Source of the DNA: Massilia sp. Root335
GTDB taxonomy: Bacteria; Pseudomonadota; Gammaproteobacteria; Burkholderiales; Burkholderiaceae_D
Length of the DNA stretch: 64,000 nt
Direction: 5' to 3'
Assembly: GCF_001425685.1 (NCBI RefSeq)
Contig: NZ_LMCY01000032.1
Coordinates: forward strand, 1 to 64,000
Both the position numbers and the translations under genes were made by a program. Positions 3,049-55,235 of the stretch are shown here, piece after piece; positions within the stretch are counted from its first letter, which is position 1, and each line of letters opens with the position of its first letter. The notes under the pieces were generated by a model. That model was not told where the DNA came from. It searched no databases and was given only the letters and a program-made list of their open reading frames with translations.

Positions 3049-3663
3049 ATGAGTAATGAGAAGCAGGTCGATTCAGGCCGGCGAGGCTTGCTCGTGGCTA
3101 CATGCGCGGCGGGTGGCGTTGTCGGTGTTTCAACGGCCGGGGTGCTGGTCAGTACGTTGCAGCCCTCCGAACGAGCAAAAGCGGCCGGCGCCCCGGTCGA
3201 GGCGGATATTTCCGACATCAAACCGGGCGAGTTGAAAGTCGTGGAGTGGCGCGGCAAGCCCGTGTGGCTCCTTCGCCGCACCCCCGAAATGCTGGCCAGC
3301 CTGCCGAAGAACGACAGCCTGGTCGCCGATCCAAATTCCGATAAATCGTATCAAATGCCGGTGCCGGCCTATGCGAAGAACGAATTCCGCGCATACGAGA
3401 AACACAAGGATCTCCTTGTCGTCGTCGGCATCTGCTCCCACCTGGGCTGCTCTCCTTCCGCCCGCTTCACCGAAGGCCCCCAGCCGAACCTGCCGGACGA
3501 CTGGCACGGCGGCTTCCTTTGTCCCTGCCATGGATCGACGTTCGACCTGTCGGGCCGCGTCTTCAAGAACAAGCCGGCTCCGGCCAACCTTGACGTGCCT
3601 CCGTACATGTACCTGTCCGACAACAAGATCCTGATCGGCAAAGACGAGAAAGGCGAGGCATAA
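3049..3663 (+). CDS. petA: ubiquinol-cytochrome c reductase, Rieske iron-sulfur subunit
   Basis: The Rieske [2Fe-2S] subunit of cytochrome bc1 carries electrons from ubiquinol to cytochrome c1 on the periplasmic face. The start at 3049 (MSNEKQVDSGRRG, 204 residues) has a GGAG ribosome site; an upstream in-frame ATG at 2977 would add 24 unlikely residues. An RR motif precedes a hydrophobic segment (residues 11-36), the twin-arginine anchor normal for this protein. Cluster ligands are Cys129/His131 (CSHLGC) and Cys158/His161 (CPCHGS), with Cys134-Cys160 as the expected disulfide. petB starts 2 bases after the stop. Confidence 0.97.
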   Translation: MSNEKQVDSGRRGLLVATCAAGGVVGVSTAGVLVSTLQPSERAKAAGAPVEADISDIKPGELKVVEWRGKPVWLLRRTPEMLASLPKNDSLVADPNSDKSYQMPVPAYAKNEFRAYEKHKDLLVVVGICSHLGCSPSARFTEGPQPNLPDDWHGGFLCPCHGSTFDLSGRVFKNKPAPANLDVPPYMYLSDNKILIGKDEKGEA

Positions 3664-3664
3664 G

Positions 3665-5080
3665 ATGGGCGCAGCGTTCAAGGAAACCAAACTCCCGGCC
3701 GACGCGCCGAAAAGCCACCGGGCCCTGGCCTGGGTCGACGACCGCTTCCCGCTGTCGAAGCTGTGGAACGACCAGTGGGGCCGCTACTACGCCCCGAAGA
3801 ACTTCAATATCTGGTATCTGTTCGGCTCGCTGGCCATGCTGATCCTGGTGATGCAGATCGTCACCGGCATCTTCCTGACCATGCACTACAAGCCGGACGC
3901 CGGCCTCGCGTTCGGCTCCGTCGAATACATCATGCGCGAAGTCCCGTGGGGCTGGCTCGTGCGCTACATGCACTCGACGGGCGCCTCGGCGTTCTTCATC
4001 GTCGTGTACCTGCACATGACCCGTGGCCTGCTGTACGGCTCGTATCGCAAGCCGCGCGAGCTGATCTGGCTGTTCGGCTTCGCGATCTTCCTGTGCCTGA
4101 TGGCCGAGGCCTTCTTCGGCTACCTGCTGCCGTGGGGCCAGATGTCGTACTGGGGCGCCCAGGTGATCGTCAACCTGTTCAGCGCCATCCCGTTCATCGG
4201 CCAGGACCTGTCGCTGTGGATCCGCGGCGACTACGTCGTGTCGGACGCCACCCTGAACCGCTTCTTCGCCTTCCACGTGATCGCGATCCCGCTGGTGCTG
4301 CTGGGCCTCGTCGCGGCGCACCTGATCGCCCTGCACGAAGTGGGCTCGAACAACCCGGACGGCATCGAGGTCAAGGAAAACCTCGGCCCGGACGGCCACG
4401 GCGTCGACACCATCCCCTCGCATCCGTACTACACGACCAAGGATTTGTTCGGCGTGTCGATGTTCCTGCTGATCTTCAGCAGCGTCGTGTTCTTTGCGCC
4501 GGAAATGGGCGGCTACTTCCTGGAATACAACAACTTCCTGCCCGCCGACTCGCTCAAGACCCCGCCGCACATCGCCCCGACCTGGTACTTCACGCCGTTC
4601 TACTCGGTGCTGCGCGCGACGACGTCGGACTTCATGTGGGTCGTGATGGCCGGCGTGGCCGCCTACGTCGTGTTCATCTGGCTCCGTTCGCGCCTGTCGT
4701 ACAAGACGAAGATCGCGGTGACCGCGGTCGCCATCCTGGCCGAGATCGGCATGCTGCCGCAGGTGCTGGACGCGAAATTCTGGGGCGTCGTGCTGTTCGG
4801 CTCGGCCGTCGTGATCCTGGCGCTGCTGCCGTGGCTGGATCATTCGCCGGTGAAATCGATCCGCTACCGTCCGGGCTGGCACAAATACGTGTATGCCGTA
4901 TTCTTCCTGGCGTTCCTGACGCTCGGCTACCTCGGCACCCAACTGCCGACCCCGGCCTACACGCTGGTCGCCCAGGCCTGCACCCTGCTGTACTTTAGCT
5001 TCTTCCTCCTGATGCCATGGTGGAGCTCGATGGGCCGGTTCAAGCCGGTGCCCAATCGCGTCACGTTCACCCCGCATTGA
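3665..5080 (+). CDS. petB: ubiquinol-cytochrome c reductase, cytochrome b
   Basis: The membrane cytochrome b of complex III (471 residues) binds two hemes and forms the quinol-oxidising (Qo) and quinone-reducing sites. Heme-ligand histidines are His103/His117 and His204/His219 in helices B and D. The Qo-site PEWY motif reads PTWY here (residues 305-308), a natural type of variant in proteobacteria. Eight or more hydrophobic helices are visible, and the C-terminal part runs past the core domain. It is translated directly after petA. Confidence 0.97.
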   Translation: MGAAFKETKLPADAPKSHRALAWVDDRFPLSKLWNDQWGRYYAPKNFNIWYLFGSLAMLILVMQIVTGIFLTMHYKPDAGLAFGSVEYIMREVPWGWLVRYMHSTGASAFFIVVYLHMTRGLLYGSYRKPRELIWLFGFAIFLCLMAEAFFGYLLPWGQMSYWGAQVIVNLFSAIPFIGQDLSLWIRGDYVVSDATLNRFFAFHVIAIPLVLLGLVAAHLIALHEVGSNNPDGIEVKENLGPDGHGVDTIPSHPYYTTKDLFGVSMFLLIFSSVVFFAPEMGGYFLEYNNFLPADSLKTPPHIAPTWYFTPFYSVLRATTSDFMWVVMAGVAAYVVFIWLRSRLSYKTKIAVTAVAILAEIGMLPQVLDAKFWGVVLFGSAVVILALLPWLDHSPVKSIRYRPGWHKYVYAVFFLAFLTLGYLGTQLPTPAYTLVAQACTLLYFSFFLLMPWWSSMGRFKPVPNRVTFTPH

Positions 5081-9807: not shown

Positions 9808-10659
9808 TTAAGTTAATGCAGTTTCATCGGCAGCGGTTTTGAGCTGCCGGTAGTAGTTTGCCTCAGCTTCGGCGGGCGGGACATAGCCGAGTGGTTCCAT
9901 CAGCCGATGGTGGTTGAACCAGGCCACCCATTCCAAGGTTGCCAGCTCGACAGATTCCCGAGTTTTCCAAGTCCGGCGATGAATCAATTCCGTCTTGTAC
10001 AAACCGTTGATCGTTTCAGCCAGCGCGTTGTCGTAGCTGTCGCCCCGACTACCAACCGACGGTTCGATGCCCGCTTCGGCCAGACGTTCGCTGTAGCGGA
10101 TACTCAGATATTGCGAGCCTCTATCGGAGTGATGGATCAAAGTTCCATTGTCACCGGGCTGGCGAGCATACAGCGCCTGTTCAAGCGCATCCAGAACGAA
10201 ATCAGTGGTCATCGACGAACTGACCCGCCAGCCGACAATGCGCCGGGCGAACACGTCCACTACGAAGGCTACGTACAACCAGCCCTGCCACGTTGAAACG
10301 TATGTGAAGTCCGACACCCACAGCTGATTTGGGCGGTCAGCAGAGAATTGCCGATTGACCCGATCCAGCGGACGTGGGGCGGCAACATCGGGAGTCGTTG
10401 TCCGGATTCGCTTGCCGCGTACAGCACCTTGCAAACCCAGTCGCTTCATCAAGCGCTCCACCGTGCAGCGGGCAACGACGATGCGTTCCCGGTTCATCTG
10501 CTTCCAGACTTTGACTGCGCCGTAGACCTGCATATTGGTCTGCCAAACCCGACTGATTTCCGGGCAGAGGATCTCATCTCGCTTCGCCCGGGCGCATAAC
10601 TTCGACGCATCACGAAGCTGTGCGGCATGGCGCCGATAACCCGACGGGGCAATCCGCAA
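9808..10659 (-). CDS. IS3-family transposase OrfB (DDE integrase domain)
   Basis: At least 283 residues with the rve-type DDE catalytic core: Asp in WVSDFTYV, Asp in IHHSDRGSQY and Glu in DNALAETINGLYKTEL, followed by the typical WFNHHRLMEPLGYVPPAEAE ending. The same frame is open upstream to about 10752 and overlaps orfA in the -1 frame, so the active transposase is probably an OrfAB fusion made by frameshifting. The TTG at 10659 is only the first internal start codon. The frame is intact. Confidence 0.9.
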   Translation of the reverse strand: MRIAPSGYRRHAAQLRDASKLCARAKRDEILCPEISRVWQTNMQVYGAVKVWKQMNRERIVVARCTVERLMKRLGLQGAVRGKRIRTTTPDVAAPRPLDRVNRQFSADRPNQLWVSDFTYVSTWQGWLYVAFVVDVFARRIVGWRVSSSMTTDFVLDALEQALYARQPGDNGTLIHHSDRGSQYLSIRYSERLAEAGIEPSVGSRGDSYDNALAETINGLYKTELIHRRTWKTRESVELATLEWVAWFNHHRLMEPLGYVPPAEAEANYYRQLKTAADETALT

Positions 10660-10715
10660 GACCTTGCAGATCGGCTCGACCCCGAAGGTGTCGCGATGCT
10701 GATCAATAAAGGCCT

Positions 10716-11042
10716 TCAGGATTTCAACCGGCGGTCGAGCTCCGCCTGGGCGAAAAACGCACTCGCCAGCTTCAGGATTTCGTTGGCTCGCCGCAGTTCC
10801 TTGTTCTCGCGCTCCAAGGCTTTGAGTCGCTCACGCTCGTCTGTCGTCACTCCTGCACGCTCACCTTGATCAATCTGGTCGCGCTTGATCCATTCATGCA
10901 GTGTTTGCGGCGTACAGCCGATCATCCCTGCGATTGACTCGACCGCCGCCCAGAGCGACGGATGCTCATCACGCTGCTCCCGTACCAGACGGACTGCGCG
11001 CTCCCGGACTTCCGGCGAAAATTTGCTTGGCTTCTTGTTCAT
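10716..11042 (-). CDS. IS3-family transposase OrfA (HTH)
   Basis: A 108-residue DNA-binding protein that recognises the IS ends. It has a helix-turn-helix (about residues 10-55, including [16 protein letters not shown]) and a leucine-zipper-like coiled coil (residues 67-92, [18 protein letters not shown]). The TTTTTC run at 10752-10757 (minus strand), near the end of the frame, is a candidate site for the -1 slip into orfB. Confidence 0.9.
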
Positions 11043-46903: not shown

Positions 46904-46909
46904 TTGGCT

Positions 46910-46925
46910 GTCGGAATTTTTTACA
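46910..46925 (+). promoter_or_regulatory. upstream activator motif (shared 16-mer)
   Basis: GTCGGAATTTTTTACA, 75 bases upstream of the -24 element of the PEP-CTERM gene. It matches the site at 53625-53640 in 14 of 16 bases and that at 14533-14548 in 12 of 16. It is a candidate enhancer site for a sigma-54 activator. Confidence 0.65.
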
Positions 46926-46999: not shown

Positions 47000-47015
47000 T
47001 GGCACGGGGATTGCT
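47000..47015 (+). promoter_or_regulatory. sigma-54 promoter of PEP-CTERM gene
   Basis: TGGCACGGGGATTGCT is a complete match to the -24/-12 consensus TGGCACG-N4-TTGCW. It ends 78 bases before the start codon. Confidence 0.9.
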
Positions 47016-47093: not shown

Positions 47094-47975
47094 ATGAAGA
47101 AGTCGTTTCGCAAGCTGATCCCGGTCGCAGCCGCCCTTGGTTTCGCACTCGCCGCATCGTCGGCACAAGCTTTCACCCTGAAGGATGGCACCAACGTCCT
47201 GGCATCGGATGCCACGACCCTGGACTGGAACACGACCGGTAGCGGTGTTGCGAAAGGCGTCGGCCCGTTCGGCTCGCCGCTGAGCGTTGGCCAGAACTTC
47301 CAGTTCCTGTACCAGTCGAACCTGGCCAGCATCGACGGCAACACGACGAACACGTTCGACTCGGGCCTGGACTTCAACGCCAACGGCACCAAAGGCGCCG
47401 GCAAGGCCTTCGAATTCACGATCGTCGCCAAGCTGACCGAAAAAGTCACGAGCCTGGCAGGCACGACCGCTACCTTCGGTCTGGGCGGCACCGCTGCCGA
47501 CAACAAAGTCGCGATCTACTACGACACCGCCGCCAACGCCTCGACCACCGGCGGCACCGGTTTCGACGACGGCCAGCTGATCGCCCTGCTGACCATCGTG
47601 CCGACCAACACCCAGTCGACCTTCACGATCGCTGGCGCCGGCGGCCAGGGTTCGACCAAGCTGAACGCAGACATCGTCCAGGCTGGCGACTTCATCGACC
47701 CGGCCTACCTGCAGGGCGTGACGCACCTGCTGTTCGGCATCAACTTCGAATCGAACCTGAACTTCCCGGCTGGCAACTCGGCTACGCTGAACTTCCAGAA
47801 AGGCGGCAGCGCCCTGTTCCCGGATTACACCGTTGACACCGCGCACGACATCGTCTTCAAGGTCGACGGTTCGAACACCTTCGCCCTGCCGGAACCGGGC
47901 ACCATGATGCTGCTGGGCATGGGCATGCTGGGTCTGGTCGGCGCACAGCGTCGTCGTCGCGCTCCGAAGGCCTAA
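47094..47975 (+). CDS. PEP-CTERM sorted exported protein
   Basis: 293 residues. Signal peptide residues 1-26 (LIPVAAALGFALAASSAQA/F). The body is Gly/Ala/Thr/Asn rich and beta-like, with few charges and no Cys, as in extracellular matrix or floc proteins. The C-terminus LPEPGTMMLLGMGMLGLVG plus the QRRRR tail is the exosortase sorting signal. It might belong to the flocculation-associated PepA type; that is not certain. A perfect sigma-54 promoter and an upstream motif precede it. Confidence 0.88.
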   Translation: MKKSFRKLIPVAAALGFALAASSAQAFTLKDGTNVLASDATTLDWNTTGSGVAKGVGPFGSPLSVGQNFQFLYQSNLASIDGNTTNTFDSGLDFNANGTKGAGKAFEFTIVAKLTEKVTSLAGTTATFGLGGTAADNKVAIYYDTAANASTTGGTGFDDGQLIALLTIVPTNTQSTFTIAGAGGQGSTKLNADIVQAGDFIDPAYLQGVTHLLFGINFESNLNFPAGNSATLNFQKGGSALFPDYTVDTAHDIVFKVDGSNTFALPEPGTMMLLGMGMLGLVGAQRRRRAPKA

Positions 47976-48039: not shown

Positions 48040-48837
48040 TCACTTGCCTTCGGGCGGCTTGAACATCTTGCCGACTTCGCGGATGACCATCGCGTGCGGC
48101 GCCAGCCCGGCAAACACGCGCTGCTTGTACGTCCCCTTGGCCGCGTTCACGACGGGCACGTCGCGCTCCAGTCCCGCCAGCGATGCCCGCACGACGTCGG
48201 CCGGCGCATCGCGCTCGACGAGGGCGCTCTCGTAGGCGCCGGCCTTGGCGTCGAACTCGGTGGCCGTCGGGCCCGGCACGAGCGTCTGCACGAGGATCCC
48301 GCGCTCCTTCCACTCCCCATGCAGCGCCTGGCTGAAGCTCTGCACGAAGGCTTTGCTGGCCGCGTACACGGCCATGTACGGCACCGGCTGGTAGGCCGCG
48401 GCCGACGAGACATTGATCACGGCACTGCTCGGGAACGAGGACAGATGGTCGAAGAAGCGGCGGCACGTCGCGACGAGCGCGGTCGTGTTGAGCGTGTTGA
48501 GTTCGTCGTAGACGCTCGCATCGGTCGCCTCGAACCGTCCCCAGCGCCCTGCCCCAGCGTTATTGCACAGCAGACGCACGCGGATGCCCGCGCCGTCGAG
48601 TTCCGCACGGATGCGCGCCACGGCGGCCGGATCGGCCAGGTCGGCCACGATGGCCCGCGCCTCGACGCCGTACTCCGTCTGCAACGTCTTGACGACGGCC
48701 AGCAGCCGCTCTTCGCGCCGCGCCACGAGCACCAGCCGCATGCCGGCCTGCGCCAGCTGGCGGGCGAATTCCTCGCCGATGCCGGACGACGCGCCAGTCA
48801 CCAGCGCCCAATGGCCTTTTAAGTCGGAAAGCCGCAT
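48040..48837 (-). CDS. short-chain dehydrogenase/reductase
   Basis: 265 residues, classical SDR: TGASSGIGEEFARQLA (NAD(P)-binding, residues 14-29), NNAGAG, catalytic Ser in INVSSAAAYQ and YAASK (Tyr/Lys). The Arg after the cofactor motif (VARREERL) suggests NADP. Substrate unknown. It is the last gene of the HPr-rel-A operon, 43 bases after the GMC oxidoreductase gene. Confidence 0.9.
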   Translation of the reverse strand: MRLSDLKGHWALVTGASSGIGEEFARQLAQAGMRLVLVARREERLLAVVKTLQTEYGVEARAIVADLADPAAVARIRAELDGAGIRVRLLCNNAGAGRWGRFEATDASVYDELNTLNTTALVATCRRFFDHLSSFPSSAVINVSSAAAYQPVPYMAVYAASKAFVQSFSQALHGEWKERGILVQTLVPGPTATEFDAKAGAYESALVERDAPADVVRASLAGLERDVPVVNAAKGTYKQRVFAGLAPHAMVIREVGKMFKPPEGK

Positions 48838-48880: not shown

Positions 48881-50503
48881 TCAGGCCTGCGCCAGCAGGT
48901 GATCCGCCACGCGCAGGGCGTTCGCCGCGATCGTCAGGCTCGGGTTGGTGCCGCCGGACGACGGGAAGAACGAGCTGTCGACGACGTACAGGTTGGCGAG
49001 CCCGTGCGCGCGGTTATTACGGTCGAGCACGCTCTGCGCAGGATCGTCGCCGAACCGGCATGTGCCGCACACGTGGGCGATGCGCTGGTTGTTCTCGGCC
49101 TGCTTGATCAGTTTGACGCTGTAGCCCGCGAACACCGCGCGCATCCGCGCGCGAAACGCCGCGATGCGCGCGCGGTCGGCGTCGCGCACGCGGTATTCGA
49201 TGGCCAGGCGGGCGTTCTCCGCGTCGTCGCGCGCCGGTTCGACGCGGTTGTCGGCATACGGGAAATCCTCGAGCGTCGCTGCCAGGATCATGCGCCGATG
49301 TACGAGACCGTCGAGCACCGGCATGACGAACGGCTTGGCCAGCTTGAACAGCGGCGCCACCCACGGCAGCGGTCCCTGGCGCAGGTCGTCGGCCACGGAG
49401 GCCGCCAGGGTGGCCGCCGGCGGCAGGCGGCCGAAGGATTGCACGGAGCCGAGTTTCTGTCCGTCCAACAAATAAAAATCGTTGAAGGCGAGCTCTTTTT
49501 GGCGATTGTCGAACTCACCCTTGAGCTTCGGCTCGACCAGGTACAGGTCGATGTGGTGGCGCATCAGGTATTTGCCGACGAGGCCGGACGCGTTCGCGAG
49601 GCCTTGCGGCCACGCGCCGGACGCCGAGCCGAGCAGGATGCGCGGCGTCTCGAGGGCGCCGGCGGCCAGCACCACGATGGGGGCACGCACGGTGAAGCGC
49701 GTGCCGCGTCGTTCGCACACGACGCCCGTCACGCGGCTGCGGTCGGCTTCCAGCGCCACGACCTCGCAATCGTCGAGCAGGCGGGCGCCGTGGTCGCGCA
49801 AGGCCGGTTGCAGGCAGATCCGGCCGGCGTCGTTCTTGCAGGCGCGGCCGCACAGATAACCCTGGCAACCGCTGCAGCCGTCGACGAATTCGCAGGCCAG
49901 CGGCAACCGGTACGGATGCAGGCCGCGGCCTTCGAACAAGCCGAACAGTTCCGCGGACCCCGGCGTCAACGGCGGAGACGGCAGCAAATGCTCGCGCGGC
50001 CCGTCCGCGCGCAGCGGGTCCGCCGTGCCGCGCACCCGGAACAATTGCTCGGCCTTGTCGTAGTACGGTGCCAGCTCGTCGTAGGCGACGGGCCAGCGCG
50101 GCGGCAGATCGGCCCCGGGCGGCGCTTGATAGTGGTCGGCGGCGGCGAAATCGGATGGGAAGAAGCGTTCCAGCGCCATGCCGTACAGCGCACTCGAACC
50201 GCCCGCCCCGGAACCGATGAAGGGCACGAAGCGCTGGGTGCGCGGACCCGAGCGGTCGACGATCTGGTCCGGATAGCGGCCGGCGCGCGCGAGGATGTCC
50301 CGATGCGCCGGCTGCGGGACTTCCGGCCGCGGGAAGTCGTCCTCGGCGTAGCGGCCGACGAGGTCCGGGTGGGCCGCGCCCTTTTCGAGGAACAGCACGC
50401 GACGGCCGGCGCGCGCCAGCGCGTAACCGAGCGTGGCGCCCCCCATGCCGGTGCCGACGACGACGGCGTCCCAGTCCTGGTCGATATCAAACGGTTCCGA
50501 CAT
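48881..50503 (-). CDS. GMC-family FAD oxidoreductase
   Basis: 540 residues. FAD-binding VVVGTGMGGATLGYALARAG (residues 15-34). The C-terminal GMC signature includes HVCGTCRFGDDP and SSFFPSSGGTNPSLTIAANA with active-site His/Asn. A Cys-rich stretch (CEFVDGCSGCQGYLCGRACK, near residue 205) could bind a metal or iron-sulfur cluster. Members oxidise alcohols of sugars, sterols or lipids; the substrate is not visible. It lies 53 bases after the nucleotidyltransferase gene, in one operon. Confidence 0.88.
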   Translation of the reverse strand: MSEPFDIDQDWDAVVVGTGMGGATLGYALARAGRRVLFLEKGAAHPDLVGRYAEDDFPRPEVPQPAHRDILARAGRYPDQIVDRSGPRTQRFVPFIGSGAGGSSALYGMALERFFPSDFAAADHYQAPPGADLPPRWPVAYDELAPYYDKAEQLFRVRGTADPLRADGPREHLLPSPPLTPGSAELFGLFEGRGLHPYRLPLACEFVDGCSGCQGYLCGRACKNDAGRICLQPALRDHGARLLDDCEVVALEADRSRVTGVVCERRGTRFTVRAPIVVLAAGALETPRILLGSASGAWPQGLANASGLVGKYLMRHHIDLYLVEPKLKGEFDNRQKELAFNDFYLLDGQKLGSVQSFGRLPPAATLAASVADDLRQGPLPWVAPLFKLAKPFVMPVLDGLVHRRMILAATLEDFPYADNRVEPARDDAENARLAIEYRVRDADRARIAAFRARMRAVFAGYSVKLIKQAENNQRIAHVCGTCRFGDDPAQSVLDRNNRAHGLANLYVVDSSFFPSSGGTNPSLTIAANALRVADHLLAQA

Positions 50504-50556: not shown

Positions 50557-51645
50557 TCAGGCCGCCTGCGACTCGTCATGCTTCGTGATAAACGCTTTAT
50601 GAAACAGATGCCGCGCCAGCAGCAGCGGCGGCATGCGCAGCCAGTTCCCGCGCACGTACAGCGCAAAGCGCGCCAGGCTGCTGAACGTACCCTCGCAGCT
50701 CACATGCAGCGGCAGCAGCGCGCGCCCGAACAACCGGTCCATCAGCCACAACAGGACCGGATTCGGCCCCGCCGGGGCCACGGCCGCCTGCACCGCCGGC
50801 GGGACGACCGTGCCGAGCAGGCGCGGGCAATAGCGTAACGCATAGAACAGCGGCCGCCCCAGCTCGAGTTCGCGCGCGCGCGCCGGCAGCGCGTCCCAGA
50901 ACCCGGGCTGCGCGCCGAATTCCCGCAGCAGCCGGTGCATGTCGACGAGGTCGCGCAAGCCCTTGTCGAATTCGCCGTCGAAGAACAGGTGCACGGCGCT
51001 GTGCAGCACCATGTCGGCCGGGGCCAGCGTGGCCAGGCCGGGCGCGCCGGCGATCGGCCTGGCCGCGGCGCGCAGCTTGTCCGGGTCGGGGCGCACCGGC
51101 GCCGTCTCCGGCAGGATCGCGTGGTGCACGTCGATCGAGTTGCCGCGCCGCGCGTGCTGCATCGGCGGCAGCTCGTGCATCCATTCACGATAGTAACGCT
51201 GGTCGTAGGTATCGTGGTGGGTGGTGATCCAGCCGTGCATCATGAGGGCCGCCTCGACCTCGGGCAGGCGGGTCTTGGGCACGAGGATGTCGATGTCGGA
51301 AAACAGCCGTCCGCGGCCCGCGTCCAGGCCGGCCATCGCATACGCGGCGCCCTTGAGCAGGATCAGCGGCAATCCCAGATCCGCCAGCGCCCGGCCGATC
51401 TGGCGGACTTCGTAGCGCGCGGCCCGGGCATGGCCGGATGCGCCCGCGCGCGTCCACTCCAGGTGCGCGCGCGGCGCGGCGGGAACCGTGTCCAGCAGGT
51501 TGGCATCTTCCAGCAGCACGAGCAGGAACGCATCGAGGTTGGCGGCGTCGGCCTGGCGCAGCAGCAAGTCCCAGCCGGCCGCGTCCAGGCCGCGCACGAC
51601 GGCCGGATCGCGCAGCACGCGCACCAGTACCGGCAGGCGCGTCAT
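50557..51645 (-). CDS. nucleotidyltransferase-fold protein of the HPr-rel-A locus
   Basis: 362 residues from ATG 51645, overlapping the kinase stop (ATGA). The PF14907-type fold is seen in LILLKGAAYAMAGLDAGRGRLFSDIDILV, where the RxFSDIDI block holds the metal-binding aspartates, followed by VEAALMMHGW. Members of this family are common beside HprK-like and PqqD-like genes. It may add a nucleotide to a protein or small molecule. Target unknown. Confidence 0.82.
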   Translation of the reverse strand: MTRLPVLVRVLRDPAVVRGLDAAGWDLLLRQADAANLDAFLLVLLEDANLLDTVPAAPRAHLEWTRAGASGHARAARYEVRQIGRALADLGLPLILLKGAAYAMAGLDAGRGRLFSDIDILVPKTRLPEVEAALMMHGWITTHHDTYDQRYYREWMHELPPMQHARRGNSIDVHHAILPETAPVRPDPDKLRAAARPIAGAPGLATLAPADMVLHSAVHLFFDGEFDKGLRDLVDMHRLLREFGAQPGFWDALPARARELELGRPLFYALRYCPRLLGTVVPPAVQAAVAPAGPNPVLLWLMDRLFGRALLPLHVSCEGTFSSLARFALYVRGNWLRMPPLLLARHLFHKAFITKHDESQAA

Positions 51646-52559
51646 GCCGTCCCCAGCGCCAGGCGTTCGAACAGTGCCATCGCGTCGGGCAGGCTGCTGT
51701 AGCGGAACGTGTACGCGTCGCTGGCGTCGATCAGCCGGCCGAGCGCCATGAAACCGCGCGCGCCCAGCACCTGGTAATTGAAGCTGTTGTCGGCCACCTG
51801 CATGAAGGCGCGCGCTTTCGGCAGCGGTTCCAATGCGACGGCGGCGCCGGCCTCCCAGCGCGGGAACACGATGCAGGCGGGCCGGGCCGGTTCCAGGGCA
51901 CGGGCGATGCTGTCCCGCGGCGCCTTCAGGTGGGCGATCGTCCCCTTGGTGGTTTCTTCCACGGGGCGGCTCAGCACGGCGTCGGGACGGAAGGCGCGGA
52001 TGATGTCGATCGAGGCATTCTTGAGGCTGACGGGGCGCGGCAGCGGCACGAGCACGCCGTCGTCGAGGTGCACGAGGGTCATCTCGTCCGACAGCAGCCG
52101 CCAGCCGTGTCCCAGCAAGGCGGCCGTCAGGGTGCTCTTGCCGGAGCCGGGCGGCGCCGGCAGGATGATCGCGCGGCCATGTTTTTCGAGCACGGCCGCG
52201 TGGATGATCAGATAGCCGTGGGCGCGGTGCGAGACGCACCAGTTCATCGTCCATTCCAGCATCGGATACGCTTGCCCCAGCGGCAGCGGCTGGAACGGCG
52301 TCGTGCCGTCATAGGCAAAATGCACCTGGGAACGATACCAGCGGCGCAGGCCGCCCGAGCGCCGTAAATCGAGGTGGAAGTCGACGAAGCCGCCGTCCGG
52401 CTCGACCGGATAATCGGCATACATCAGCGCGAGGCTGTCGATCAATGGCGGGACGTCGCTGCGGATGCGGTTGGCGAAGGGGCCCGTGCGCAACACGAGG
52501 CCGTCGCCGGACAGGCGCGCCCGCAGTTCGGCGCGCGACAGCGAACCGACCGTCAGCAT
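51642..52559 (-). CDS. HprK-related kinase A (HPr-rel-A system)
   Basis: 305 residues. The P-loop PAPPGSGKST (134-143) and a following LLSDEMTLVHLDDGVLVPLPRPVSLKN block resemble the catalytic core of HPr kinase/phosphorylase and the TIGR04352 group. The N-terminal 100 residues differ from HprK. It starts inside the end of the PqqD-like gene and overlaps the next gene, so the three are translationally coupled. It probably phosphorylates a Ser on a partner, perhaps the leading protein of this operon; this is not shown. Confidence 0.85.
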   Translation of the reverse strand: MLTVGSLSRAELRARLSGDGLVLRTGPFANRIRSDVPPLIDSLALMYADYPVEPDGGFVDFHLDLRRSGGLRRWYRSQVHFAYDGTTPFQPLPLGQAYPMLEWTMNWCVSHRAHGYLIIHAAVLEKHGRAIILPAPPGSGKSTLTAALLGHGWRLLSDEMTLVHLDDGVLVPLPRPVSLKNASIDIIRAFRPDAVLSRPVEETTKGTIAHLKAPRDSIARALEPARPACIVFPRWEAGAAVALEPLPKARAFMQVADNSFNYQVLGARGFMALGRLIDASDAYTFRYSSLPDAMALFERLALGTA

Positions 52560-52819
52560 GGTTCGATCAGGTCCAGCCCGGCCAGCGCGGCCAGCATGTC
52601 GTCGATCAGGGACACGAGGTCATCGTCGCCGGCATCAAAGCGTTCGGCCAGGCGGCCGGCCAGCGTGGCGGCATCGGCGGGTTCGTCGCGCAAGGCGAGC
52701 AGCAGGTCGAGCGCGGCACCATCCAGCAGGTGGGTACTGCCCGACAAGTCGTTGTACAGCACGGCTTCCCCATCCCATTCCCGGCAGGCCAGCGCCTGCC
52801 CAGGCGTCAAACGCCACAT
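52553..52819 (-). CDS. PqqD-like peptide-binding protein (HPr-rel-A system)
   Basis: 88 residues with the PqqD/RRE fold: WRLTPGQALACREWDGEAVLYNDLSGSTHLLDGAALDLLLALRD. PqqD-like domains bind leader peptides of ribosomally made, modified peptides and present them to an enzyme. It overlaps the HprK-like gene by 7 bases and follows the 207-residue protein by 15 bases, so that protein is the natural candidate for its ligand. Confidence 0.85.
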   Translation of the reverse strand: MWRLTPGQALACREWDGEAVLYNDLSGSTHLLDGAALDLLLALRDEPADAATLAGRLAERFDAGDDDLVSLIDDMLAALAGLDLIEPC

Positions 52820-52834
52820 GCGTGTCGCCGCCCG

Positions 52835-53458
52835 TCAGTCGTGAATCGAGCTGAGGTAGTTAGCGACCTGGGCATTGTCCCAGTACACGCCGGCGGTCGG
52901 GCTGTAGCGGCCCGTGGTCTGCAGCTCGCTCCACATGGTCTGCAGGTCGGTGAGTTCGATGAAGTCGATGTACTTCGCCTGCAGGTTGAGGTAAGCCGCC
53001 ACCAGGTGCATGCCGACATTGTTGTTGTCGAAGTCCTGCGGGTTCAGCATGTCCGCCAGCTTGGCGCAGTAGTACGAGCCCGGCTTGTAGCAGTCGCCGT
53101 TGTTGTACGAATCGGCCCGGACCGGGCAGGCCGTGCCGTTGCCCACCGCGTAGAACACGCTGGTGAACATCAGGTCGCGCGACACCGGCCATGCATGTTG
53201 CGGCTGCTTCCAGTAGCCCGGCGATAAGCCGTTGCAGGCAGGCGCCTTGCCGTTCGCGTAATGGCTGGCGGCCAGGCCGTTCGACAGCGAGCCCGAAGGC
53301 GCCCGACAGACCATCGACGCCATCGCCGACTTGCTTTCCAGCGTCGCGAGAACCCCGGCGCCCATGCCGATTTTGGCCAGGCGACGACGGGCCGCCCCGC
53401 GTTGAGTCAAGGACGGCGCCGTTTCAATCTTGTCGTTATTTTGATTTTCGGTAGCCAC
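52835..53458 (-). CDS. unknown protein leading the HPr-rel-A operon; possible modified substrate
   Basis: 207 residues from GTG 53458, 7 bases after TGGGGA; an upstream in-frame ATG at 53512 is less likely. The first 20 residues are polar; 20-48 are RGAARRRLAKIGMGAGVLATLES, a basic patch plus a short hydrophobic stretch that could be a Tat-like signal or a leader. The remainder has five Cys and a SPGYWK motif (79-84) of the type in GYWKxH proteins. No PEP-CTERM motif. A sigma-54 promoter precedes it. I do not recognise the family. Confidence 0.65.
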   Translation of the reverse strand: MATENQNNDKIETAPSLTQRGAARRRLAKIGMGAGVLATLESKSAMASMVCRAPSGSLSNGLAASHYANGKAPACNGLSPGYWKQPQHAWPVSRDLMFTSVFYAVGNGTACPVRADSYNNGDCYKPGSYYCAKLADMLNPQDFDNNNVGMHLVAAYLNLQAKYIDFIELTDLQTMWSELQTTGRYSPTAGVYWDNAQVANYLSSIHD

Positions 53459-53522
53459 GTGCGTTCCCCAAAATGTTGTCGCGCTCACTGAGGGCGACCA
53501 GTACCTGAACAAGCAAGTTTTG

Positions 53523-53538
53523 CGCCAGCGTGGTGCCA
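53523..53538 (-). promoter_or_regulatory. sigma-54 promoter of the HPr-rel-A operon
   Basis: On the minus strand TGGCACCACGCTGGCG has a perfect -24 half (TGGCAC), correct GG-N10-GC spacing and one mismatch in the -12 TTGC. It is about 65 bases from the GTG start of the 207-residue protein. Confidence 0.7.
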
Positions 53539-53624
53539 GGAAGAAAAACTTACATTAAAATCAGGTGCTTATTTTGGTGCCGTACCACCCAGCAACTACT
53601 ATTGTATGTTGGAACGCCGGGTGA

Positions 53625-53640
53625 TGTAAAAAATATCGAC
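53625..53640 (-). promoter_or_regulatory. upstream activator motif (shared 16-mer)
   Basis: GTCGATATTTTTTACA on the minus strand, 87 bases upstream of the -24 element. It is 14/16 identical to the motif ahead of the PEP-CTERM gene at 47094. Confidence 0.65.
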
Positions 53641-53651
53641 GGACGTTGTTG

Positions 53652-54278
53652 TCAGAAGAAACTTTCCGGAATGACCAGAACGTCACCCGGTCGCATCGGC
53701 ACGTTGGCCGAAATGTCGCCCTCTTTGATCAGGTCGTCGAGGCGAACGTTGAACCGTTGTTGTTTACCATCCACGTTACGGATCAGGCTGGCGCGATTGC
53801 CCGCCGCGAATTCCGTGGTGCCGCCGACGGCGATCATCACGTCCATCAAACTCATGTTCCGGCGGTAAGGCAGCGCCTGCGGCTTCGTGGCCTGGCCGAT
53901 CACGCGGATCTGCTCGTCGTAATTGCCGACGAAGGTCGTCACGACGACGGTGACGACGGGCTGCTGGATGTACTTGGACAGGGCTTTTTCGATATCGCGG
54001 GCGAGCGCGGTCGAGGTTTTGCCGGCGGCCGGCAGGTCTTCGACGAGCGGCGTCGTGATCTTGCCGTCCGGACGCACCGGCACCGACATCGACACTTCCG
54101 GATTGCGCCAGACGATGATGTTCACGGCATCCCCCGGCCCGATCAGGTATTGGCTGTCGGTCACCTGCGTCTCGATCGGCTGTTGGCCGCGCGTTGCGCA
54201 ACCACCCAGCGCCAGCGCGCATGCGGCGGCGAGCACGATCGCCGAATGTTTCACCAGGTTCGCCTTGTACTTGCCCAC
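53652..54278 (-). CDS. XrtA-type polysaccharide export lipoprotein (Wza-like)
   Basis: 208 residues. Lipobox LGGC (Cys27) after a signal helix, then the polysaccharide-export domain (YLIGPGDAVNIIVWRNPEVS, residues 44-63, with VRPDGKITTPLVEDLPAAGKT) and an SLBB-like part. It is shorter than Wza and lacks its C-terminal helix, as is usual for XrtA loci. It should form the outer-membrane exit for the exopolysaccharide. It is on the opposite strand to the rest of the operon, separated by a protease gene. Confidence 0.9.
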   Translation of the reverse strand: MGKYKANLVKHSAIVLAAACALALGGCATRGQQPIETQVTDSQYLIGPGDAVNIIVWRNPEVSMSVPVRPDGKITTPLVEDLPAAGKTSTALARDIEKALSKYIQQPVVTVVVTTFVGNYDEQIRVIGQATKPQALPYRRNMSLMDVMIAVGGTTEFAAGNRASLIRNVDGKQQRFNVRLDDLIKEGDISANVPMRPGDVLVIPESFF

Positions 54279-54410: not shown

Positions 54411-55235
54411 TTACTTCTTCTGCAACAGCGCGCGCACGTAGTTGGCGGGGATGGCATATGTGATCCCGCTCGGCGCCGTGATCGCCGTCTCCTTGAGCCC
54501 TTTCACGAACACGGCATTGATCACGCCCAGCACCTTGCCGGTGGCGGGATCGTACACGGGGCTGCCGCTGTTGCCGGGATACGCCGTCCCGTCGAGCTGG
54601 AAGATATTGAAGGGTGCGCGTTGCAGGGCCGCGATCTGGCGCGGATCGAGGCTGCGGGCGCCGAGCGAAGGACGGACGATGGGCGTGATGGCCGCCAGGG
54701 TCGCCCGGTGCGTGGCCGCGTGCAGGCCCAGCGCCATGGCGAGCGGGAAACCCGTCAACGCCAGCTCCTGCCCTTCCTGGGCCGTATCCGAATCGCCCAG
54801 TTCGAGCGCGGGCAAGGGCGTGCCGCTGAGACGCAGGTGGGCCAGGTCGTGTTCGTTGTCGCGCGCCACCAGCGCGGCCGGCCGGAAGCGCACCCCTTCG
54901 CCATCCGGCAGCACGATGCCGAGCTGTTCGATGTTGCCGTCGGCCGGCGTGGCCGGGACGACGTGGGCATTGGTGATGACGTCCAGGCCGTCGCCGACGA
55001 CGAAACCGGTGCCGACGAAGACCGTCGACGGGCTGCGGGTCCGCTCGAACGTGCCGACACCCACGACGGAACGTTTGATGGTCGGGACGATCGTCCTCAG
55101 GTCGGTTGCCGCGGCCAGCCCCGGCAGGGCGCAGGCGGACAGCGCAAGTACGCCCAGCACGGTCGCCACACGGCGCCGACGGGGGTGGGAAGACGGGTTG
55201 ACGGGAGCACGCTCCCTATTTCGAAGCGGCATCAA
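54411..55235 (-). CDS. secreted trypsin-like serine protease
   Basis: 274 residues, no PDZ domain. A basic N-terminus (RRRR) and a signal helix (VATVLGVLALSACALPGLAAA) suggest export. The triad is His91 (TNAHVV), Asp130 (EHDLAHL) and Ser223 (YPGNSGSPV). It is inserted between the export gene and the main operon, on the minus strand, 132 bases upstream of the export lipoprotein. Its target is unknown; processing of exported or envelope proteins is plausible. Confidence 0.82.
   Translation of the reverse strand: MMPLRNRERAPVNPSSHPRRRRVATVLGVLALSACALPGLAAATDLRTIVPTIKRSVVGVGTFERTRSPSTVFVGTGFVVGDGLDVITNAHVVPATPADGNIEQLGIVLPDGEGVRFRPAALVARDNEHDLAHLRLSGTPLPALELGDSDTAQEGQELALTGFPLAMALGLHAATHRATLAAITPIVRPSLGARSLDPRQIAALQRAPFNIFQLDGTAYPGNSGSPVYDPATGKVLGVINAVFVKGLKETAITAPSGITYAIPANYVRALLQKK

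Follow-up and report, generated by a model that had tools for sequence, protein, structure and literature searches.

A predicted substrate protein encoded by the first gene of an HPr-rel-A operon in Massilia

We analysed a stretch of 64,000 nucleotides from Massilia sp. Root335 (contig NZ_LMCY01000032.1, positions 1 to 64,000 of the forward strand; hereafter the window), whose minus strand carries an operon encoding, in this order, a 207-residue protein that we call LEAD, a PqqD-type protein, an HprK-like kinase, a PF14907 nucleotidyltransferase, a GMC oxidoreductase and an SDR protein. The kinase and the PqqD-type protein score above both curated cut-offs of the NCBIfam models named HPr-rel-A (TIGR04352 and TIGR04353), a cassette that has a database name and, in the literature searched, no described substrate. 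The two model names give none either, and no paper on the name or its substrate was found in that literature, which for the most part did not cover subscription journals. On comparative grounds, we name LEAD as the predicted substrate with good confidence. An initial annotation of this DNA had placed these genes here, led by a protein of 207 residues with five cysteines; all were found with the expected families and coordinates, and the cysteines of LEAD lie at residues 51, 75, 111, 123 and 131. The four genes on which the argument turns are as follows.

52835..53458, minus: LEAD, predicted substrate protein (207 aa, GTG start)
52553..52819, minus: PqqD-type leader-binding protein, a predicted RiPP recognition element, RRE (TIGR04353, 60.7 bits, cut-off 35)
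51642..52559, minus: HprK-like kinase, HprK_rel_A (TIGR04352, 400.2 bits, cut-off 200)
50557..51645, minus: nucleotidyltransferase-fold enzyme, ATG at 51645 (PF14907, 195 bits)

The PqqD-type and kinase genes overlap by 7 nt and the kinase and nucleotidyltransferase genes by 4 nt; the three are therefore tightly coupled, in agreement with the translational coupling claimed for them earlier. Gaps of 15, 53 and 43 nt separate LEAD from the PqqD-type gene, the nucleotidyltransferase from the GMC gene and the GMC from the SDR gene, respectively. Family-profile scans took in eight genes of the window (48.0-55.2 kb).

The initial annotation had regarded the leading protein as the natural target of the PqqD-like system. 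A kinase over the TIGR04352 cut-off was present in 27/274 genomes of the class and in 50/195 genomes of the family, which together gave 76 distinct loci, every one of which was read (L057, L058 and L059, whose kinases fall under the cut-off, are excluded; L and G numbers are our handles for loci and genomes). In 75 of the 76, the kinase gene is preceded by one for a precursor with a twin-arginine (RR) leader (73 found by script, L051 by eye and L047 separately); 70 of these precursors are LEAD-type, and L038, L047, L049, L054 and L056 carry other bodies. In a separate scan, the LEAD profile matched in 79/80 named kinase loci, the copy in L251 lying downstream of the kinase. Absence of the leading gene from other HPr-rel-A loci, which would have spoken against this role, was looked for and not borne out.

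Co-occurrence in other genomes, the survey proposed alongside that claim, pointed the same way. Among the 195 family genomes, strong LEAD matches (E <= 8.7e-12) were found in 50/50 kinase-positive and 0/145 kinase-negative genomes; the absence from the latter is the informative half, because the profile was built from kinase-linked LEADs. The remaining family matches, in six places (E 7e-5 to 9e-4), are confined to the leader region of the model, positions 11-81. Likewise, the 18 strongest matches (E <= 3e-31) in 239 class genomes all fall in kinase-positive genomes, and the weaker ones are to the body domain alone in other proteins or to the leader part alone. Kinase-positive class genomes with other bodies (G015, G057, G134) gave a weak match or a match in a different gene.

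Leader, serine segment and two body types

LEAD can be divided into three parts.

53318..53389, minus: twin-arginine leader, Arg24 to about Ala47 (R24 and R25 invariant, 63/63)
53282..53308, minus: predicted modification segment C51-R-A-P-S55-G-S-L-S59 (S55 and S59 invariant, 63/63 and 50/50)
52838..53236, minus: SPGYW-type body domain, from Cys75 through the C-terminal end (good AlphaFold confidence, apart from about residues 101-130)

The sequence of LEAD changes fast compared with the cassette enzymes: identity to the window protein is 22-51% across the two main LEAD alignments, against ranges of 38-62% for the kinase and 51-71% for the nucleotidyltransferase. These alignments comprised 49 of 68 references plus the window protein (A1), and 62 sequences, drawn from 79 LEAD matches by way of 72 references, plus the window protein (A3). 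In the 63-sequence alignment (mean column identity 22%), the only invariant columns are Arg24, Arg25, Ser55 and Ser59, the RR pattern having served to pick the sequence starts; in the 50-sequence alignment they are Arg25, Ser55, Ser59 and Asn158. A 73-sequence set, in which four members have other bodies, retains each of C51, S55, S59 and N158 in 69/73.

The two serines form a pattern, C-x(2,3)-S-x3-S, directly after the leader. S-x3-S stands next to the leader in 69/69 and 79/79 sequences (the latter count using all 79 matches), and the fuller form with a cysteine 3-4 residues ahead in 60/69 and 73/79, against 1/82 control windows from the body. AlphaFold gave low confidence to the leader end and to the serine segment, which is probably flexible in view of this model.

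The leader itself resembles a signal for twin-arginine translocation (Tat). The Tat-like pattern RRx[FLIM] occurs in 72/73, 72/72 and 39/39 leaders of three sets, counts that are biased toward the motif because an RR pattern or a leader profile helped to select the sets; the strict form [ST]RRx[FL] occurs in 36/73, 40/72 and 6/39. LEAD thus has the sequence expected of a Tat substrate, a twin-arginine motif ahead of a hydrophobic stretch, and its export is predicted. A further, loose pattern, Pro-x-[VILFAM], is found in 36/39 leaders of the phylum-wide (further) and type II loci and in 14/19 from other families of the class, and is rarer elsewhere (4/50 own-family and 11/72 named-locus leaders).

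Short RR-leader peptides reading AY-x-APVV were also seen beside sub-cut-off kinases, twice in L313 (4576-4749 and 6212-6391, plus strand, 57 and 59 aa) and once in L314, and the leader of L057 reads GWAIPVI. Their motif, Y/W-x-x-P-x-[VI], resembles the one known for RRE binding, and these few peptides may tentatively link the two kinds of leader. Ten other sub-cut-off loci were inspected and had no convincing leader.

To extend the comparison, a phylum-wide sample was used in which 51/299 genomes carry the kinase. From these, 40 new loci were examined, 35 of them outside the class; three had been covered before, and G485, G491, G535, G627, G643, G676, G682 and G735 were left out. In 34/40, a precursor with an RR leader is encoded upstream of the kinase, and in 29 of the 34 a C-x-x-S-[FLIVM] motif stands no more than 25 residues from the C-terminal end. 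Four class loci, L047, L049, L054 and L056, belong to the same body type, with C-x-x-S-[FLI]. The motif was first noticed in the class loci and the first 20 further loci; in the other 20, viewed afterwards, a leader was present in 18 and the motif in 15/18, a second half that is not independent of the first because several of its loci share genera with it. Two precursors of this kind are minimal: that of L047 has only 74 residues and ends GSACISCNASLI after its leader, and that of L304 stops about 46 residues past its RR. What is kept when nearly all else is lost is thus the leader and a single Cys-x-x-Ser site.

Outside these loci, LEAD resembles little. The window protein reaches the cut-off of no Pfam or NCBIfam family and has no PHROG, and 0/50 members match Pfam or NCBIfam at E<=0.01; a PF10645 match (E 0.057) and a match to PDB entry 7qf8 (E 0.01) were weak and were not used. 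A search for a similar solved fold gave nothing: no PDB match reached E<=0.001, and none of 37 aligned chains had Z>=2. LEAD was also considered as a PEP-CTERM protein and rejected, as it has no NCBIfam match at E<=1 and its C-terminus, ...NYLSSIHD, carries no sorting domain. The SPGYW body domain was seen without an RR leader near the C-terminus of other proteins (L321, L322, L323); the body is therefore a module.

Promoter and PEP-CTERM control

Ahead of LEAD lie two predicted regulatory elements.

53625..53641, minus: PEP-CTERM box, predicted PrsR activator site, CGTCGATATTTTTTACA (conserved ahead of the precursor)
53513..53538, minus: sigma-54 -24/-12 promoter, two overlapping candidates (one mismatch each)

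The initial annotation had noticed a 16-mer, GTCGATATTTTTTACA (53640..53625, minus), that is identical at 14/16 positions to GTCGGAATTTTTTACA (46910..46925, plus) ahead of a PEP-CTERM gene, and had held that this 16-mer and a sigma-54 promoter tie the operon to surface-protein sorting. Judged by its sequence, the 16-mer is the PEP-CTERM box, that is, motif 1 of Haft and colleagues, whose passages on these elements describe a motif ending TTTACA at its 3'-end and followed by a sigma-54 motif 2 (PMC1569441); they also mention a few additional sites ahead of other genes. The arrangement of the two motifs here is identical to that of the PEP-CTERM/exosortase regulon under PrsK, PrsR and sigma-54, as given in the relevant parts of PMC1569441 and PMC9850573; LEAD differs from that regulon in having no PEP-CTERM domain. 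The two sigma-54-like candidates are TGGCACCACGCTGGC (53538..53524) and TGGCGCAAAACTTGC (53527..53513), both minus. In the window, sites of this kind with 2 mismatches or fewer are no more frequent than chance predicts (76 observed against 84 expected), and the pattern in the window alone does not count; the box and the sigma-54 site rise above chance because they are conserved across loci. In its own genome, the box occurs in 8 places at no more than one mismatch, against 3 for a control pattern.

Upstream of 73 precursors, the box (at least 11/13) was found in 52, with 0 on the reverse strand and a mean of 0.37 (maximum 2) in shuffles, and the sigma-54 pattern (at least 8/10) in 56, with 3 on the reverse strand. 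The shuffles for sigma-54 were mononucleotide at first, followed by a Markov model (mean 5.0, maximum 11), the reverse strand and other ORF (open reading frame) starts, which would give 10.5. In 71 named loci, box (at least 11/14) and sigma-54 site (at least 8/10) occur together in 51 (reverse strand 0), and the distance from box to -24 element is 74-98 nt in 49/51, clustering near 76, 85 and 96 nt, about one helical turn apart. The corresponding distances in the window, 86 and 97 nt, both fall inside this range.

PrsR itself was found over cut-off in 50/50 kinase-positive genomes of the family against 79/195 overall, in 25/27 of the class against 72/274 (exceptions G008 and G169), and in 15/51 of the phylum against 27/299. 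In 38 further or type II loci, the box is present in 9 (reverse 2) and a sigma-54-like site in 22 (reverse 2). The pair of box and sigma-54 site stands ahead of LEAD in most class relatives and is rare elsewhere; dependence on PrsR is rejected as a universal feature. The tie to PEP-CTERM control claimed at the outset is thus supported for only a part of the loci that carry the cassette.

Two related sites were seen in the same genome. The gene at 47094..47975 (plus) has a PEP-CTERM-like end, an exact box at 46909..46925 and an exact sigma-54 site, TGGCACGGGGATTGC, at 47000..47014, and a further exact box lies at G000:C20:24702-24718 (L138).

Proposed modification and rival explanations

The catalytic residues of both enzymes are intact, as judged from alignment. 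In the kinase (A2; 31 of 76 above-cut-off kinases plus the window), H120, the P-loop residues G138, G140, K141, S142 and T143 (GxGKST), D158 and E159 are invariant in 32/32; the profile finds the HprK structures 1jb1 and 2qmh (E 0.0011), and among 80 named records the nearest relative of the window kinase is the Massilia norwichensis enzyme (73% identity). In the nucleotidyltransferase (A4; 45 of 80 references plus the window), K99-G100, G113-R114, D118-x-D120, D173 and H175-H176 are invariant in 46/46, numbers that are one too high since the query started one codon ahead of the ATG. Its AlphaFold model (pLDDT, the predicted local distance difference test, 92.6) is nearest in Foldseek to MenT1, with ANT(2'')-Ia close behind (best E about 1e-3), and its profile has no PDB sequence match at E<=1. 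The PqqD profile (A5; 34 of 78 references plus the window) has a single PDB match at E<=0.1, the lasso peptide RRE TfuB1 (E 0.042). At E<=0.01, the nucleotidyltransferase is present in 80 and the PqqD-type protein in 76 of the 80 named kinase loci; at E<=1, the PqqD-type protein stands just ahead of the kinase in 78.

The nearest known system is that of the linear polyphosphorylated peptides (LPP) of Bacillota, described in the sections of PMC13381572 (Nat Commun 2026) used here, which state that it is restricted to that phylum. It comprises an HprK-like kinase, a discrete RRE, an NTP (nucleoside triphosphate) transferase and a precursor of 35-200 aa with a conserved N-terminus and a variable C-terminus, often at capsule loci; LppK phosphorylates Ser3, near the start of the core, and an S3A change abolishes the phosphorylation. 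The same three proteins are present together here. In contrast, the LPP leader has YxxP and the leaders here are of the twin-arginine kind, with YxxP in 0/50, 0/19, 0/39 and 0/72, and the SipW-type peptidase and MsbA-like exporter of LPP are not among the eight window genes scanned. The cassette differs further in its occurrence in Pseudomonadota, its PEP-CTERM/sigma-54 control, the long body of LEAD and the trypsin-like protease nearby. With two LPP features lacking (the leader motif and, in the window, the peptidase and exporter), we did not file the cassette as LPP; it works, by analogy, like LPP and seems to be its whole-protein counterpart in Gram-negative bacteria. Phosphorylated lasso peptides (paeninodin, pseudomycoidin) are also similar in having an HprK-like kinase, a nucleotidyltransferase and a leader-binding protein, B1. 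In the portions of PMC9266682 concerned, PadeK phosphorylates the C-terminal serine of the precursor and the nucleotidyltransferase PsmN is linked to hexoses on the phosphoserine. Unlike them, the cassette has neither a macrolactam cyclase nor a B2 peptidase among the eight window genes scanned, and LEAD is no short lasso core.

We therefore propose a protein-modification system whose substrate is encoded by the first gene, a reading that, with its chemistry and export included, we regard as probable. LEAD would be synthesised with its twin-arginine leader, which the PqqD-type protein would bind in the cytoplasm, presenting LEAD to the enzymes. The kinase would phosphorylate S55 and/or S59 of the window LEAD, and its target in the second body type would be the serine in the C-x-x-S-[FLI] motif close to the C-terminal end; the nucleotidyltransferase would then add a nucleotide or sugar onto the phosphoserine, both steps being suggested by analogy with LPP and lasso peptides. 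LEAD would leave via Tat and lose its leader, the neighbouring trypsin-like protease may trim it, and the decorated protein would act in the envelope or exopolysaccharide layer. Transcription by sigma-54 with the PEP-CTERM activator PrsR would mean that LEAD is made alongside PEP-CTERM surface proteins. The binding of the leader, the phosphorylation with its site, the addition of a second group, export through Tat and the function are what we infer here; linkage, co-occurrence, promoter conservation, catalytic residues, invariant serines and a leader kind shared by different bodies have computational support. The initial annotation was correct in essentials, and the chemistry is the part of the picture to be read conditionally. 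A broader version, which we consider possible and rather doubtful, is that RiPP-type leader logic (RiPP, ribosomally synthesised and post-translationally modified peptide) builds a phospho-linked sugar or nucleotide on a folded secreted protein in Gram-negatives before Tat export, the leader being both Tat signal and modification tag, with a product in the PEP-CTERM biofilm matrix that is perhaps covalently tied to exopolysaccharide.

Several observations weigh against this proposal. Among the class loci, L052 has no precursor (its kinase sits ~640 bases from a contig end), and the LEAD-profile search of the 80 named loci found none in L236. In 6/40 further loci (L280, L284, L287, L289, L298, L300) no precursor was found; two of the 34 leaders are weak (L288, L290), and 5/34 precursors have no terminal C-x-x-S motif, of which L292, L299 and L307 are LEAD-like by eye and L291 and L308 fit neither type well. 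The candidate acceptor serine follows the leader in one body type and lies near the C-terminus in the other, and N158, a body residue, is conserved equally with the serines in the 73-sequence set (69/73 each). The RRE motif [Y/W]xxP is absent from the four sets of cassette leaders counted above, the window leader likewise lacking its Pro, and Tat by itself could account for much of the conservation in the leader. The co-occurrence counts ignore the phylogeny of the genomes. Finally, the LPP nucleotidyltransferase LppN was inactive in a heterologous host, according to the corresponding section of PMC13381572.

In a rival explanation, LEAD is an ordinary Tat-exported surface protein that shares its operon and regulon with enzymes acting on another peptide or on an exopolysaccharide precursor. 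The operon does adjoin the XrtA exopolysaccharide export gene in 34/50 own-family loci, and the leader is Tat-like (RRx[FLIM] in 72/73). However, no strong LEAD match occurs without the kinase in the 195 family genomes, a similar leader is found on unrelated bodies beside the same kinase family, two precursors are almost solely leader and motif, and two serines are invariant in 63 sequences of 22% mean column identity; we consider this explanation unlikely. Better placed, and still doubtful in our view, is the idea that the PqqD-type protein serves chiefly in Tat proofreading, as a chaperone retaining LEAD until it is modified or folded, much as the redox enzyme maturation protein (REMP) chaperones TorD and DmsD perform Tat proofreading for redox enzymes. 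The conserved, Tat-like leader would suit such a role, but the one PDB match of the PqqD profile is the lasso RRE, and the idea is in any case compatible with modification of LEAD rather than exclusive of it.

The least probable of the three is that the enzymes install a nucleotide-derived prosthetic group on a serine, in the manner of the holo-ACP (acyl carrier protein) nucleotidyltransferase of malonate decarboxylase, LEAD being a periplasmic carrier or redox protein with the GMC and SDR proteins of the window as its redox partners. The resemblance of the PF14907 model to the true nucleotidyltransferases MenT1 and ANT(2'')-Ia (E about 1e-3) fits this, as does the best NCBIfam match of the GMC protein, the mycofactocin dehydrogenase MftG, which at 82 of 387 bits is far under cut-off. 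On the other hand, GMC and SDR genes stand beside the cassette in only 3/49 other family loci, the minimal precursors would have no carrier fold, and the related systems carry phosphate or hexose and no cofactor, as far as the pertinent parts of PMC9266682 and PMC13381572 go.

Taken together, the comparisons favour LEAD as a modified substrate, and suggest for HPr-rel-A what its substrate is, which two residues may be modified and which regulatory program it follows. If the proposal is true, the logic of LPP, newly described for peptides of Bacillota, would apply also to whole proteins exported by Pseudomonadota, and leader-guided modification would be joined to Tat export, both tied to the PEP-CTERM biofilm system.

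Neighbouring genes

The genes around the four discussed above are these.

48881..50503, minus: GMC oxidoreductase, accessory (family scan of the window protein)
48040..48837, minus: SDR, accessory (family scan of the window protein)
53652..54278, minus: XrtA/PEP-CTERM exopolysaccharide export protein, neighbour (TIGR03027, 244.7 bits)
54411..55235, minus: trypsin-like serine protease, often found near the cassette and a candidate for maturation (PF13365)

The GMC and SDR genes follow the cassette in the window, as the initial annotation had said, and in L113, L133 and L134 among the 49 other family loci; the pair is a recurrent but rare addition, and as core enzymes the two were rejected. Where the XrtA export gene adjoins the operon in the family, it lies directly upstream of LEAD.

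The trypsin-like protease occurs in the examined stretch of 34/50 own-family and 12/29 other loci (three of the 29 having sub-cut-off kinases), with no fixed strand or distance, in 37/80 named loci with their short flanks and in 3/40 further loci. One close homologue per genome (E <= 1.4e-52) was found in 20/24 kinase-positive class genomes, the 24 being drawn from the 27, near the cassette in 12, and in 1/5 PrsR-positive genomes without a kinase over cut-off. With only 3/40 further loci having it and 4/24 class genomes lacking it, the idea that every system includes it was rejected; its role may be to mature LEAD, or to serve the PEP-CTERM system generally.

Two minor features were also seen. 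An ORF of L313 at 3542-4042 has an end that is PEP-CTERM-like by eye. In the window, an ALIL pseudoknot (RF01497), a frameshift element of insertion sequences, lies at 10645..10761 on the minus strand.

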